A stretch of DNA of 31,554 bases from a virus (IMGVR_UViG_3300048136_000083:1-31554), one strand, 5' to 3'. Positions 14,245-19,150 are shown, counted from the first letter of the stretch. The notes: generated from the letters alone by a model not told the origin. Made by a program: numbers and translations.

Positions 14245-15195
14245 TTACGCTGCAAGTGACTTGGATGCAAGTCGAACAGAGTCGGTACGCTTGGCCTTGA
14301 TTGCTAGGATGCTACCTTCAACAGTCTTTCTAGCAGCAGGGGCGTGTGTACTCCAGTGAGTCATAGCATTGTACGCTGCCCAGTGAGTAGATCCAAGTGT
14401 CTTCTGCTCATCAGTAGTGTACTGGTTCCACATGTACTGTAGCGCACGATTGCGGTACACCTCTGGCTCCTCCATCAACTCAGTGACAGACATGTTAGGC
14501 TTGGACAGCACAAACTTACACTTAGCTGCGATAGCGAACACGTTGAATGCCTCACGGTTAGTGATGCTGTTCTGAGTCCAGTACTTCCAACGATCAGCCT
14601 CATGCTGGTAACTATTGAGAGCAGCAGCAAGCTTACGCTGGGCATGTTCAGTACTCATACTGATAGTGTGCTTCGCCTTGTACATGCTGAAGTTATCCAC
14701 AAAGACCTGACCATTAGTGCATACCATACGAACCGCGCCTATCTGTAGAGTGACTGCCCAACCACCATCAAAGGATGTCCTACCATTGATCTGGAATCGG
14801 CTCTCGTCACCCTTTGCAGTCTCTATGGTATACTCAGGAAGAGTGATTGTAATAGTACCCTTGCCTCCTTCTGGTGTCATCATAGAGTCAACATAGGCAC
14901 CCTTACAGTTGATGCCTGATGCCTTGCAGATGTTAACCATAGCCCTGTATAAGTCACCATACTGTGCGCCCTTGAAGTTGTAACTAGGCTTAACCACATT
15001 AATTGGTGGCTCATCAGTACCTGCTACATGTAAACCTCTACGGTTAGGATCAGCAACATTAAAGCCATCACTGTTAGTATATAACATAGGTCTTGACTCT
15101 ATTATAGTATCAACAATACTAGGTGGAACTAAGTTATCAAGAGGATGAGACTCAGTAACTGTATTGTTAAATATGTTAAATACATTTGTATTCAT
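14245..15195 (-). CDS. DUF932-like (phage/plasmid-type) protein
   Basis: 316 residues; start ATG preceded by AAGGGAAAAT. The middle of the protein fits the DUF932/phage-plasmid-like family: GGWAVTLQIGAVRMVCTNGQ followed by VFVDNFSMYKAKHT, then a helical C-terminal half (HAQRKLAAALNSYQHEADRW). Members occur in phages and plasmids, usually near early genes; their function is not settled, with anti-restriction or DNA-binding roles suggested. It is the first gene behind an extended -10 promoter and could be strongly expressed early. Confidence 0.75.
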   Translation of the reverse strand: MNTNVFNIFNNTVTESHPLDNLVPPSIVDTIIESRPMLYTNSDGFNVADPNRRGLHVAGTDEPPINVVKPSYNFKGAQYGDLYRAMVNICKASGINCKGAYVDSMMTPEGGKGTITITLPEYTIETAKGDESRFQINGRTSFDGGWAVTLQIGAVRMVCTNGQVFVDNFSMYKAKHTISMSTEHAQRKLAAALNSYQHEADRWKYWTQNSITNREAFNVFAIAAKCKFVLSKPNMSVTELMEEPEVYRNRALQYMWNQYTTDEQKTLGSTHWAAYNAMTHWSTHAPAARKTVEGSILAIKAKRTDSVRLASKSLAA

Positions 15196-16484: not shown

Positions 16485-16512
16485 TGAGCAGTTTATCCAC
16501 ATACTCAGGTGG
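16485..16512 (-). ncRNA. Pseudoknot element, copy 1
   Basis: Minus-strand order: CCAC, C, TGAGTA, T, GTGG, ATAAAC, TGCTCA. Stem 1 is CCAC/GTGG; stem 2 is TGAGTA/TGCTCA with one U-G wobble. The crossing loops are one nucleotide and an A-rich six, as in classical H-type pseudoknots. It begins 11 bases after one gene's stop and ends 28 bases before the next start. Confidence 0.75.
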
Positions 16513-16522
16513 CAGGAGTAAC

Positions 16523-16780
16523 CTATTCAACAGCGATACCGAAGTCGCTGCCATCCTCATGAAACACAGTGATCTCATGATCTGAGGTGCCATACTTGTA
16601 GTTAATCAGGTGTAGTATCTCACGTATCTGACTATTGCTAGCATTCACCTTCTCTGCAATGGTCATCACATGCTCATCTGTAAGATGCACAGGGTCTGAC
16701 TTCCTGCAAACTTTAATATCAGTCCAGCCCTTATCTGAGTCACGGCTGATCACCGCCTTTCTTGCTCTGTGGATATTCAT
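16523..16780 (-). CDS. Unknown 85-residue protein
   Basis: MNIHRARKAVISRDSDKGWT, then SDPVHLTDEHVMTIAEKVNA and EITVFHEDGSDFGIAVE. It starts in a TAATG overlap with the gene upstream. The end looks like a small beta hairpin. Its stop is followed after 11 bases by pseudoknot copy 1. No known family. Confidence 0.6.
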   Translation of the reverse strand: MNIHRARKAVISRDSDKGWTDIKVCRKSDPVHLTDEHVMTIAEKVNASNSQIREILHLINYKYGTSDHEITVFHEDGSDFGIAVE

Positions 16781-17004
16781 TATTTAATGTCCTTGATTAC
16801 TTGAATGCATACACCATCGGCAACACTGTACGACTTGTACGTACCCTTGCCTAGATAGATATGCGCTGATGCTCTTGCTCTAACTGCATGTTCTTTAGGA
16901 ACAATGAACCAATCACCTTGCTTCATGCCAGAGAAGAGTCCCTTCCAGCGTGAACGTCCAGTGGTAGGAGCAGGAGCAGATTGCACTTTATAATACGTAG
17001 CCAT
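16780..17004 (-). CDS. Unknown 74-residue protein behind pseudoknot 2
   Basis: Start at ATG 17004 (MATYYKVQSAPAP), with AGGAAG eight bases upstream. The centre, MKQGDWFIVPKEHAVRARAS, followed by IYLGKGTYKSYSVADGVCIQ, resembles small SH3-like or WYL-like beta proteins found in phages, which often bind nucleic acid. Pseudoknot copy 2 ends 16 bases before the start, so its last stem borders the ribosome binding site directly. Confidence 0.65.
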   Translation of the reverse strand: MATYYKVQSAPAPTTGRSRWKGLFSGMKQGDWFIVPKEHAVRARASAHIYLGKGTYKSYSVADGVCIQVIKDIK

Positions 17005-17019
17005 ATTTTTCTTCCTCGT

Positions 17020-17047
17020 TGAGCAGTTTTTCATCATGCTCAGGATG
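17020..17047 (-). ncRNA. Pseudoknot element, copy 2
   Basis: Minus strand: CATC, C, TGAGCA, T, GATG, AAAAAC, TGCTCA. Stem 1 is CATC/GATG, stem 2 a perfect TGAGCA/TGCTCA. The Shine-Dalgarno sequence of the next gene (GAGGAAG) begins three bases after stem 2, so folding would be expected to affect ribosome access. Confidence 0.8.
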
Positions 17048-17102
17048 CGAGGGGTTTTGGTCATCAGCACAGGCCCTCGTTACCTATGCTGATGTTTGTA
17101 AT

Positions 17103-17795
17103 CTATCCGACTGCAATTAGGTCTGTGTCTACAACAAAGTTGCCTTTGTCTTTCTTAGCCTTAGCCTTAGCAATCAATCCGACAATAACCTTACCAGCCT
17201 TGACGTTCACAAGGTCTGAGGCATCGCCATCTATCACCCTGCGACCTTTGTAATACTTGGGCATACCATTGCGGAACACCACAGACATAGGCACATTAGA
17301 CTTGAGTGCCTTGACCACATGTTTTTGGTATGCAGGTTCGTTACTGTAGGAGTACATCAACTCGTAGTTGGGTGGAGTCTTACCCAGCCTTGACGCATTC
17401 TTCGTATAGTCATAGAAGAAAATATCGGGAAACTCCTGCGGTATCCCATGCTTCTCCCACGGTATGTCTGACAATACATTAAGACGCACTGCCGCCTTGA
17501 CACCCTGACGCTTGCAAAGCTTGTCGAAGTTAGTCAATTCCTTGCGAAGCTTGTCAAGGAAACCAGCCCTGTCGCTATGCCACCAATCAGACTTGCGTTG
17601 CCTACCTGCCTTGACGTTTGAGAATACGCCCATACCTGCCGACTCAAGGCAAGACTCTGCACATCCTGCTACATGCCGGTAAGGACAGAGAACATCATCA
17701 GGCATGAGAGACAGACCCGCCAGCCGATACTCTTGGCTGCTATTGTCACTTTTCTTTAGCTTGGTGTTACCGCCTGTTGTATCAAGTAGTTTCAT
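17103..17795 (-). CDS. Conserved phage protein, Cys-rich N-terminus (DUF7227-like)
   Basis: 230 residues. Pattern: LAGLSLMPDDVLCPYRHVAG, then CAESCLESAGMG (Cys37, 45, 49), a run of VKAGRQRKSDWWHSDR, VRLNVLSDIPWEKHG, FYDYTKNASR, and a C-terminal VIDGDASDLV with VIVGLIAKAKAK. I know this arrangement from hypothetical proteins in many lytic phages (possibly DUF7227; number from memory). Cysteine clustering hints at a metal site, and conserved N, D and E hint at an enzyme. Function unknown. It overlaps the gene upstream by four bases. Confidence 0.75.
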   Translation of the reverse strand: MKLLDTTGGNTKLKKSDNSSQEYRLAGLSLMPDDVLCPYRHVAGCAESCLESAGMGVFSNVKAGRQRKSDWWHSDRAGFLDKLRKELTNFDKLCKRQGVKAAVRLNVLSDIPWEKHGIPQEFPDIFFYDYTKNASRLGKTPPNYELMYSYSNEPAYQKHVVKALKSNVPMSVVFRNGMPKYYKGRRVIDGDASDLVNVKAGKVIVGLIAKAKAKKDKGNFVVDTDLIAVG

Positions 17796-17983
17796 TCTTC
17801 CTCCATCATTGCCCTGTCTGCTTGGAATCTTTCAATCGTTGTCTCAATTGAATTGATCTTCTCGCACTCAGCCTGAATCACTGGATGCCATAGTTCATCA
17901 ATGACATCCCCCGGCTTATAGAAATCCCATGCCCATTCTTTGAAACTTTTGATCTCAGTTGGATCTAATTCTTTAAATATCAA
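17792..17983 (-). CDS. Unknown 63-residue protein
   Basis: I place the start at TTG 17983, overlapping the preceding TGA (TTGA) with GGAGGAAGG upstream; GTG 17998 is an alternative. Sequence: IFKELDPTEIKSFKEWAWDF, then YKPGDVIDELWHPVIQAECE. The N-terminal motif resembles small phage proteins of the same operon region in marine podoviruses (impression only). Function unknown. Confidence 0.6.
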   Translation of the reverse strand: MIFKELDPTEIKSFKEWAWDFYKPGDVIDELWHPVIQAECEKINSIETTIERFQADRAMMEEE

Positions 17984-18147
17984 CTCGCCTTCCTCCACTT
18001 TGCTCTGCGTTCTAATTCTAGTTGGCAAGCCATGCCCTGCCTAATGAAATGCTCCGCGTCAATACTGCCATAAGCTTTGCTAGCCTTAGCCCAGTAGCGC
18101 AACCCAATCTCATTGATCTGCTTATCCGATAATCTTTTGAGATTCAT
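17980..18147 (-). CDS. Unknown 55-residue protein behind pseudoknot 3
   Basis: Start ATG 18147 with CGAGG upstream. Sequence: MNLKRLSDKQINEIGLRYWA, then SIDAEHFIRQGMACQLELER; helical and basic at the end. Pseudoknot copy 3 ends 30 bases before the start. It is the first protein gene after the structured RNA region. Confidence 0.6.
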   Translation of the reverse strand: MNLKRLSDKQINEIGLRYWAKASKAYGSIDAEHFIRQGMACQLELERRAKWRKAS

Positions 18148-18176
18148 ACACTTACCCTCGTTTATTAAACAAAAAA

Positions 18177-18205
18177 TGAGCAGTTTAACGCCATACTCAG
18201 GGCGT
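18177..18205 (-). ncRNA. Pseudoknot element, copy 3
   Basis: Minus strand: ACGCC, C, TGAGTA, T, GGCGT, TAAAC, TGCTCA. Stem 1 has five pairs (ACGCC/GGCGT); stem 2 TGAGTA/TGCTCA has one U-G wobble that would be a mismatch on the other strand. It ends with A/T-rich TTTTTTGTTTAATAAACGAGG leading to the next gene. Confidence 0.8.
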
Positions 18206-18329
18206 GTAGCAGTTATGGTTATGTACACCCTTGCGAGGCATACATAGAGCCAAGGCAAACGAGCTTGAGAGGCCATAGGCACCCCGACTGGTTACGGTGG
18301 TTCCGTCCCGCCCTGCTACGAAATACTGT

Positions 18330-18357
18330 GGGGCAGTTTATAGTCATGCTCAGGACT
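18330..18357 (-). ncRNA. Pseudoknot element, copy 4
   Basis: Minus strand: AGTC, C, TGAGCA, T, GACT, ATAAAC, TGCCCC. Stem 1 AGTC/GACT is perfect and different from all other copies; stem 2 has a weaker outer part (an A-C mismatch). Followed by ACAGTATTT and the closing stem of segment C. Confidence 0.7.
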
Positions 18358-18413
18358 CCGCGACTGTTAGTATCCTATCTGCAATTCGCCACGGCTCCAC
18401 TAGGCAGATAAGA

Positions 18414-18441
18414 TAGACAGTTTAACGCCATGTCTAGGGCG
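18414..18441 (-). ncRNA. Pseudoknot element, copy 5
   Basis: Minus strand: CGCC, C, TAGACA, T, GGCG, TTAAAC, TGTCTA. Stem 2 is changed on both sides (TAGACA/TGTCTA instead of TGAGCA/TGCTCA) with full pairing kept, the strongest covariation among the six. Confidence 0.8.
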
Positions 18442-18565
18442 ATTGTGTGTGACGCTTACGGTTATCCATCCTCCAATTAGTCAAGTAGGGCCGTCAGTCT
18501 GGACTATTCCAGCCGGAGGCTACGCCATATCAATGGCGCATACCAGACGAATCACACAAATACTG

Positions 18566-18596
18566 TAGGGCAGTTTTACATCGTACCCATAGGATG
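18566..18596 (-). ncRNA. Pseudoknot element, copy 6
   Basis: Minus strand: CATC, C, TATGGGTA, C, GATG, TAAAAC, TGCCCTA. Stem 1 CATC/GATG; stem 2 pairs TA and GGGTA with TGCCCTA leaving one bulged T and one U-G wobble. Followed by ACAGTATTT as in copy 4. Confidence 0.7.
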
Positions 18597-18667
18597 GTTC
18601 CCAGCGCCGGAGAGAAACGCTGGTATTGAAAGTTTACCCTTTACAATGCCACGTTGGATTTTGGTTG

Positions 18668-19150
18668 TTATTGAGCCTGTAAGTCTGCCAGCGTGGAGCG
18701 TAGTACCGCCTCTAACCTATCATTGGCAGATGATACCTTGGCCCGTCCCTCCTCTTTGGCTTTGTCCAGAGAAGAAAGCAGCGCCTTGGCTTTTAGGATC
18801 AAGTCTAGATCTGGCTTGGCTATGCCTTCCCTACTGAATTCGTACCAGTTCGATTCTATTGGCTTGACCTCTATGCTTTCGCCTTTGATCTTTTTAACAA
18901 CAAAACCGTCCTGATCTTTTGCCGCTAAAAACTTCACATTGGCATGAGCTTTAATAAAGTTTTTAAGGTCAGCACTGCGAATGCTTTTCATCGTAACACT
19001 AGCATTCACTAGCATTTCGATCCGCGACGTGTCGCCATGTTGCGCGTAGGTATCGACAGCCGATACTGTTAGCAATTGGATATTGTCGCGTAATGTTGAC
19101 TCTGATTTCTTAGCCGCTTTAATTTTTGCGGCGAATGTTTTTGTGTCCAT
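18668..19150 (-). CDS. Unknown 160-residue protein between two structured RNAs
   Basis: MDTKTFAAKIKAAKKSESTL at the start, then LLTVSAVDTYAQHGDTSRIE, a central LKNFIKAHANVKFLAAKDQD, VVKKIKGESIEVKPIESNWY and a helical C-terminus (DLILKAKALLSSLDKAKEEG). It is predominantly alpha-helical and basic in the first half. It is the first protein gene of the leftward operon, with GAGGG upstream of its start. A similar N-terminal pattern occurs in hypothetical proteins of marine podoviruses (impression). Its place between two candidate structured RNAs raises the possibility of an RNA-binding role; there is no sequence motif for it. Confidence 0.75.
   Translation of the reverse strand: MDTKTFAAKIKAAKKSESTLRDNIQLLTVSAVDTYAQHGDTSRIEMLVNASVTMKSIRSADLKNFIKAHANVKFLAAKDQDGFVVKKIKGESIEVKPIESNWYEFSREGIAKPDLDLILKAKALLSSLDKAKEEGRAKVSSANDRLEAVLRSTLADLQAQ

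Follow-up and report, generated by a model that had tools for sequence, protein, structure and literature searches.

Six pseudoknot copies in the window

The window (the whole viral stretch analysed, 31,554 nucleotides) carries six copies of a small RNA pseudoknot between positions 16,485 and 18,596, interspersed with genes on the minus strand. As for the other metagenomic loci, these genes are simple ORF calls, GenBank annotation being used for named phages. Reading along the minus strand, a 160-residue gene (18668-19150; phrog_1448, unknown function) is followed by a stretch of about 460 nt (18205-18667), which has no sizeable sense ORF, contains copies 4 to 6 and has copy 3 at its 3′ edge. 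Copy 3 lies 30 nt upstream of an ATG at 18147. Copy 2 is found 55 nt after the stop codon of a 230-residue gene (17103-17795; phrog_1617, unknown function) and 17 nt upstream of an ATG at 17003, and copy 1 follows the stop of an 85-residue ORF (16523-16780) by 10 nt. The earlier note had placed three copies shortly before small genes, in agreement with the 17-30 nt measured here to the ATGs at 17003, 16457 and 18147.

A covariance model trained only on sequences of other phages, none of them from the window (hereafter R1), was used to search the window with filters off. All six copies were recovered, all on the minus strand, with no other match at E<2, which confirms the six-copy family described in the earlier note. 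Written from stem 1 to the second strand of stem 2, copy 1 (16485-16512) reads CCAC-C-TGAGTA-T-GTGG-ATAAAC-TGCTCA (40.6 bits, E 6.8e-10), copy 2 (17020-17047) CATC-C-TGAGCA-T-GATG-AAAAAC-TGCTCA (43.8 bits, E 8.3e-11) and copy 3 (18177-18204) CGCC-C-TGAGTA-T-GGCG-TTAAAC-TGCTCA (41.2 bits, E 4.6e-10). Copy 4 (18330-18357) is degenerate, AGTC-C-TGAGCA-T-GACT-ATAAAC-TGCCCC (34.0 bits, E 4.7e-8), copy 5 (18414-18441) carries a compensated stem 2, CGCC-C-TAGACA-T-GGCG-TTAAAC-TGTCTA (35.9 bits, E 1.3e-8), and copy 6 (18566-18596) is divergent, CATC-C-TATGGGTA-C-GATG-TAAAAC-TGCCCTA (16.3 bits over 18567-18596, E 0.004).

Stem 1 had been said to vary while remaining paired, and it does so in all six copies (CCAC/GTGG, CATC/GATG twice, CGCC/GGCG twice, AGTC/GACT), with one additional A-T pair in copy 3. 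Covariation of stem 2, also claimed, is borne out by TAGACA/TGTCTA in copy 5, but stem 2 is intact in only four of the six copies. In copy 4, where stem 1 is intact, TGAGCA/TGCCCC forms four of six pairs, and stem 2 of copy 6 pairs only with a bulged T (TA-t-GGGTA/TGCCCTA). The set thus comprises three intact copies, one with a covaried and one with a damaged stem 2, and one that is divergent and bulged.

The stretch at 18205-18667 is possibly a phage noncoding RNA. Paired regions are predicted throughout it, yet its stability was no greater than that of shuffled sequences (z = -1.46). Arrays comparable to it are found in related phages, in some cases with degenerate knots or a tRNA.

Architecture and covariation of the knot

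The family consensus is an H-type pseudoknot of 28 nt, (N)NNC - C - UGAGYA - U - GNN(N) - WWAAAC - UGCUCA. Stem 1 changes freely in sequence while keeping Watson-Crick pairs. Loop 1, an invariant single C, crosses the 6-bp stem 2 (U....A with U....A). In loop 2 the base is mostly U. Loop 3, six A-rich nucleotides (WWAAAC) ending in AAAC, crosses stem 1. Apart from being poor in G, neither flank shows conservation.

We scanned the IMG/VR collection with the pattern CTGAGYATNNNNWWAAACTGCTCA, which fixes the core and leaves stem 1 free and for which about one chance match was estimated collection-wide. At least 120 viral stretches were matched, on contigs of 4 to 116 kb, and stem 1, among 139 distinct contexts from the matches listed, formed four of four pairs in 121 and three of four in 18, with none worse. 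When two stem-2 pairs were freed instead (CTRGRCATNNNNWWAAACTGYCYA), the first of them was GC in 61, AU in 23, GU in 23 and AC in one of 108 distinct matches among those listed, all 108 of which had three or four of the four stem-1 pairs. A one-sided mismatch control (TGAGCA with TGCCCA) matched a single stretch. With a structural descriptor demanding full pairing, related and matched loci totalling 1.6 Mb yielded 182 distinct copies, and the reversed sequence yielded none.

Covariation was evaluated on 92 rows picked by sequence only, bearing in mind that selection by sequence pattern biases the set toward canonical forms. Paired cells amounted to 96.7%, compared with 75.1% (sd 1.0) in shuffled and 26-37% in slid alignments; the covariation score was 0.631 versus 0.213, and cells changed on both sides numbered 227 versus 68. 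The inner stem-1 pairs (columns 2-15 and 3-14) were Watson-Crick in 184 of 184 cells and never G-U, a pattern that docking of adenines in the minor groove would predict. U-G wobbles, on the other hand, are frequent in stem 2 and would turn into A-C mismatches if the opposite strand were read, which argues for the minus-strand reading in the window. The same conclusion follows from placement, since long-ORF stop codons lie 4-25 nt before 206 of 364 copies on the sense strand and before 13 on the antisense strand. An inverted repeat acting at the DNA level was rejected on these two grounds.

Taken together, a selected H-type RNA pseudoknot with real covariation in both stems is well supported by sequence comparison. 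The earlier note had reached this view from compensatory change within the window and had looked to homologues that keep the pairing; such homologues were found in large numbers, and the compensation exceeds that of shuffles. Its further statement that only loop bases stay constant does not extend to the wider family, in which stem 2 is mostly fixed (TGAGCA or TGAGTA with TGCTCA).

Distribution among phages and cellular genomes

The knot is present in phages of Cyanobacteria, Proteobacteria, Actinobacteria, Bacteroidota (crAss-like) and Bacillota, with one to eight matches per phage genome searched. Complete or near-complete knots are found in two cobaviruses (roseophage SIO1 and Lentibacter phage ICBM2), in the cyanomyoviruses S-RIM4 and S-H35, Nostoc phage NMeng1 and Kyanoviridae phage C48C1, in Paracoccus phage ParMal1, Mycobacterium phage Labelle, crAss-like phage cr7_1 and Arthrobacter phage Molivia, in an Acutalibacteraceae phage and in Lactobacillus, Moorella and thermophilic D6E phages, as well as in a microvirus of 5,035 bases. 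Synechococcus phage S-EIV1 has seven model matches. Weaker or bulged forms occur in Staphylococcus phage DW2, Vibrio phage D456 and Chaseviridae of Erwinia and E. coli. Some BLAST matches, in an ACG-2014a coding sequence and in Aeromonas phage ZPAH14, were not genuine knots and were discarded.

In bacterial genomes the knot is rare. In a scan of 84,980 bacterial and archaeal species, 38 stretches carried the core pattern, and 25 of these have at least three stem-1 pairs, and the 30-31-nt query matched neither plasmids nor any of 5,426 E. coli genomes. One of the 38 cellular matches (L204:212-235) is a CRISPR array spacer in a cyanobacterial MAG, apparently directed against a knot-carrying phage. 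No earlier account of the knot was found in the literature searched, the coverage of which was incomplete, and it is apparently a very widespread and previously undescribed element across phages.

The earlier note had also considered a binding site for a phage's own protein, which is unlikely for an element shared by unrelated phages, one of them as small as a 5-kb microvirus. The many host phyla and the microvirus favour instead a mechanism that is universal among hosts or intrinsic to the RNA.

The upstream stop codon as the fixed landmark

Among the 364 copies, no stop codon of a long ORF lies 0-3 nt before the knot, one lies at 4 nt and 52 lie at 5 nt, with counts declining beyond. The knot keeps its place relative to the stop codon of the upstream gene, normally 5-15 nt behind it, and this position is the main new fact of the analysis. 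GenBank annotations give spacings of 5, 5, 6 and 11 nt in S-EIV1, 9 nt in SIO1, 6 nt in Labelle, 6 nt in ParMal1 and 10 nt in S-RIM4, while in Molivia the knot lies 6 nt after the stop of the SSB gene. Many of the neighbours that appeared convergent or divergent in simple ORF calls resembled calling artefacts on inspection and were set aside.

Upstream gene families that recur with differing downstream genes include DUF932 and Hsp20, other upstream genes encoding SSB, ribonucleotide reductase and a clamp-like protein. Several of the products of these readable upstream genes are expected to be abundant. The window itself encodes a DUF932-type protein (14245-15195; phrog_1221), whose homologues elsewhere often have a knot 3′ of the gene; none follows the gene in the window. 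In five loci (L013, L036, L060, L061 and L062), a conserved block follows the Hsp20 gene and consists, in this order, of a TATAAT-like box, a short stretch rich in hairpins and the knot.

These positions bear on whether the knot serves the downstream gene, as a protein site (host or phage) or a small riboswitch comparable to the T4 gene 32 knot or the GP20-b RNA discussed below. Such a cis-regulator would account for the three window copies close to starts and for the finding that about half of the copies for which a neighbour was called lie at most 45 nt from the next start or tRNA, the majority of these in short gaps; GP20-b is, moreover, listed as Cis-reg in Rfam, and scaffold and capsid genes follow the knot in Bacillota phages. 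We nevertheless consider this explanation unlikely. Of 165 copies in gaps longer than 120 nt, 106 lie close to the stop, 21 close to the following start and 38 at neither, a preference for stop over start of about 5:1. Downstream genes and distances vary, 24 copies stand 3-13 nt before tRNA genes, a single phage protein common to a 5-kb microvirus and large myoviruses is implausible, and neither preQ1 nor any other Rfam riboswitch was matched. Control of the downstream gene thus fits the Bacillota capsid-operon copies and not the general position.

The same preference makes it improbable, more so than downstream control, that the knot is an RNA-processing element, left by cleavage at the 5′ end of the downstream message and protecting it from 5′-end-dependent decay. 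Its intercistronic location, often just before the next ribosome-binding site, and the G-poor, unpaired-looking flanks would suit this role, but the knot tracks the stop rather than the start and no conserved cleavage-like sequence was detected in the flanks. Upstream flanks contain no conserved -10 or promoter-like block, and neither promoters nor terminators are enriched downstream of knots. An intrinsic terminator was rejected as well, T5 or longer being present in only 45 of the 364 copies.

The earlier interpretation is therefore supported for the selected, covarying, minus-strand H-type knot and not supported where it tied the element mainly to small downstream genes or to a 5′ end: the stop codon is the landmark across relatives, and copies also precede tRNAs.

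A possible guard of the upstream message

We propose, with a probability of roughly 0.4, that the knot is a 3′-UTR roadblock that would act on the upstream message as an exonuclease block or an insulator. Given the sharp limit at 5 nt, a ribosome halted on the stop codon would hardly ever cover the knot, and this points to selection for nearness to the gene end while staying folded. The knot would be placed as near the stop as possible without being melted by the terminating ribosome and would halt 3′-to-5′ exonucleases there. Once an endonuclease or RNase P has cut farther downstream, the 3′ end of the upstream gene would thereby be kept whole. The knot may also insulate the cistrons on its two sides from each other, and tertiary contacts made by the invariant C, U and AAAC could give such a small knot its rigidity. 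This reading fits best where a tRNA follows, since RNase P must there make the mRNA 3′ end just beyond the knot.

Several observations sit less easily with a roadblock. The Bacillota copies before scaffold and capsid genes, some of which come after an apparent terminator, are more like a 5′ leader, and in the window copy 2 is 55 nt from a stop and copies 3 to 6 are in a noncoding stretch, which speaks against it. More bases are conserved than the stability of the knot alone should require, so that a specific partner is possible.

The main rival to the roadblock, which we judge less probable though still ahead of downstream control, is a device facing the ribosome, in which the knot would touch the leading edge of the terminating ribosome and block readthrough, forward sliding or 70S re-initiation at the following gene, or tune termination and recycling. 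The 5-nt limit and the mode at 5-10 nt correspond to the spacing at which knots meet ribosomes, and the stops adjoining the knot are TAA in 72% and TGA in 6%, in a comparison whose control may contain false ORFs. Against such a device, copies that precede tRNAs have no downstream cistron to insulate, and other copies are in noncoding stretches far from stops. Promotion of stop-codon readthrough was rejected, in-frame extensions being short and one spacer frame at once meeting a TGA inside the knot.

In chromosomes of Bacillota, of Aminicenantes and of the phylum of one Syntrophaceae locus (L221), the knot ends tiny genes of about 18-24 codons with a Shine-Dalgarno sequence (L198, L203, L221, L208, L212, L405, L408, L410, L413, L383, L384, L385 and L381). 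These mini-genes share a conserved AHCxxGC (or THCxxCG) motif and matched nothing in Rfam or NCBIfam. Their stop codons fall between 8 nt before the knot and 14 nt within it, and the frame is largely the same from one to the next. Conservation of the frame into the knot favours the ribosome-facing device, and the knot would meet the ribosome while it decodes the last Cys of AHCxxGC. Several mini-genes have an intrinsic terminator after the knot, which would render an exonuclease block redundant there.

More broadly, we tentatively entertain, with somewhat less assurance than the roadblock itself, that a single tiny RNA device, tuned to the leading edge of the terminating ribosome, may have spread among dsDNA and ssDNA phages of most bacterial phyla and into the family of AHCxxGC mini-ORFs, using conserved host machinery as a general 3′-end guard or cistron separator. 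RNA elements common to unrelated phages and host phyla are few, and a strongly covarying 28-nt knot locked to the stop codon suggests a general solution to a problem that all phages share, a candidate being how to keep dense polycistronic messages intact or separate.

Comparison with known RNA elements

Rfam gave no match in the window, and none appeared within 18100-18720 at E<=10. The earlier statement that no named family matches holds in this sense; it misses that GP20-b (RF03003) has a knot of this kind as its 5′ domain. GP20-b, of the Rfam class Cis-reg, is found in Firmicutes phages and prophages upstream of the scaffold (GP20) gene. Its 5′ domain shares the H-type architecture, with loop 3 as UAAAA(C/G) and stem 2 annotated. 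Stem 1, absent from the Rfam model, covaries among bona fide members (GGCC/GGCC, GCC/GGC, GGUC/GACC, GUC/GAC, GAC/GUC), as read by eye and for part of the members by script. Membership of GP20-b requires a covariance-model score of at least 36.2 bits, and no part of the window matched. Two sequences form a bridge. One (L368), a GP20-b member close to the threshold, scores 35.2 bits with GP20-b and 26.7 bits with R1 (E 4.5e-6), and the other, the best phage copy, the near-canonical knot of a Lactobacillus phage (L355), reaches 26.2 bits with GP20-b, below this threshold. GP20-b additionally carries a second hairpin and UAAAAAAGCgUA, both absent after the window copies, and sits upstream of a scaffold gene, whereas the window copies neighbour small early genes. 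We conclude from these sequence features that the GP20-b 5′ domain is probably a local form of the knot, which would explain that family, and that the knot is not a GP20-b RNA. In two gut phages (L352:1501-1686 and L347:2501-2684), the knot abuts the 5′ end of the DUF2800 RNA (RF02960), and this direct junction suggests that the DUF2800 RNA may extend further 5′ than drawn.

The pseudoknot of T4 gene 32 is bound by gp32 and belongs to the 5′ UTR of a single gene, that for SSB. Knots of the T4 gene 32 family and the present one are H-type elements of phage mRNA with a 1-nt loop over a stem 2 of 6-7 bp and a loop of 6-7 nt over a stem 1 of 4-5 bp; unlike them, the present knot is repeated, lies near the stops of many unrelated genes, has other conserved bases and, in Arthrobacter phage Molivia, stands 3′ rather than 5′ of the SSB gene. 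The STAXI motif (Weinberg et al. 2010, PMC2864571) is likewise a small pseudoknot that occurs in repeats close to genes of DNA metabolism, SSB among them, but differs in its tandem repeats and UUCG loops, and Rfam gave no match for the window knots. A type III toxin-antitoxin RNA (ToxI-like), which would consist of tandem repeats directly before a toxin endoribonuclease gene, does not fit, the copies being dispersed among varied genes. Recoding pseudoknots (readthrough, -1 frameshift) share with the present element a location 5-9 nt after the A-site codon, but here no in-frame extension is conserved beyond the stop. If the knot indeed guards 3′ ends, it would parallel the exonuclease-resistant RNAs of eukaryotic viruses.
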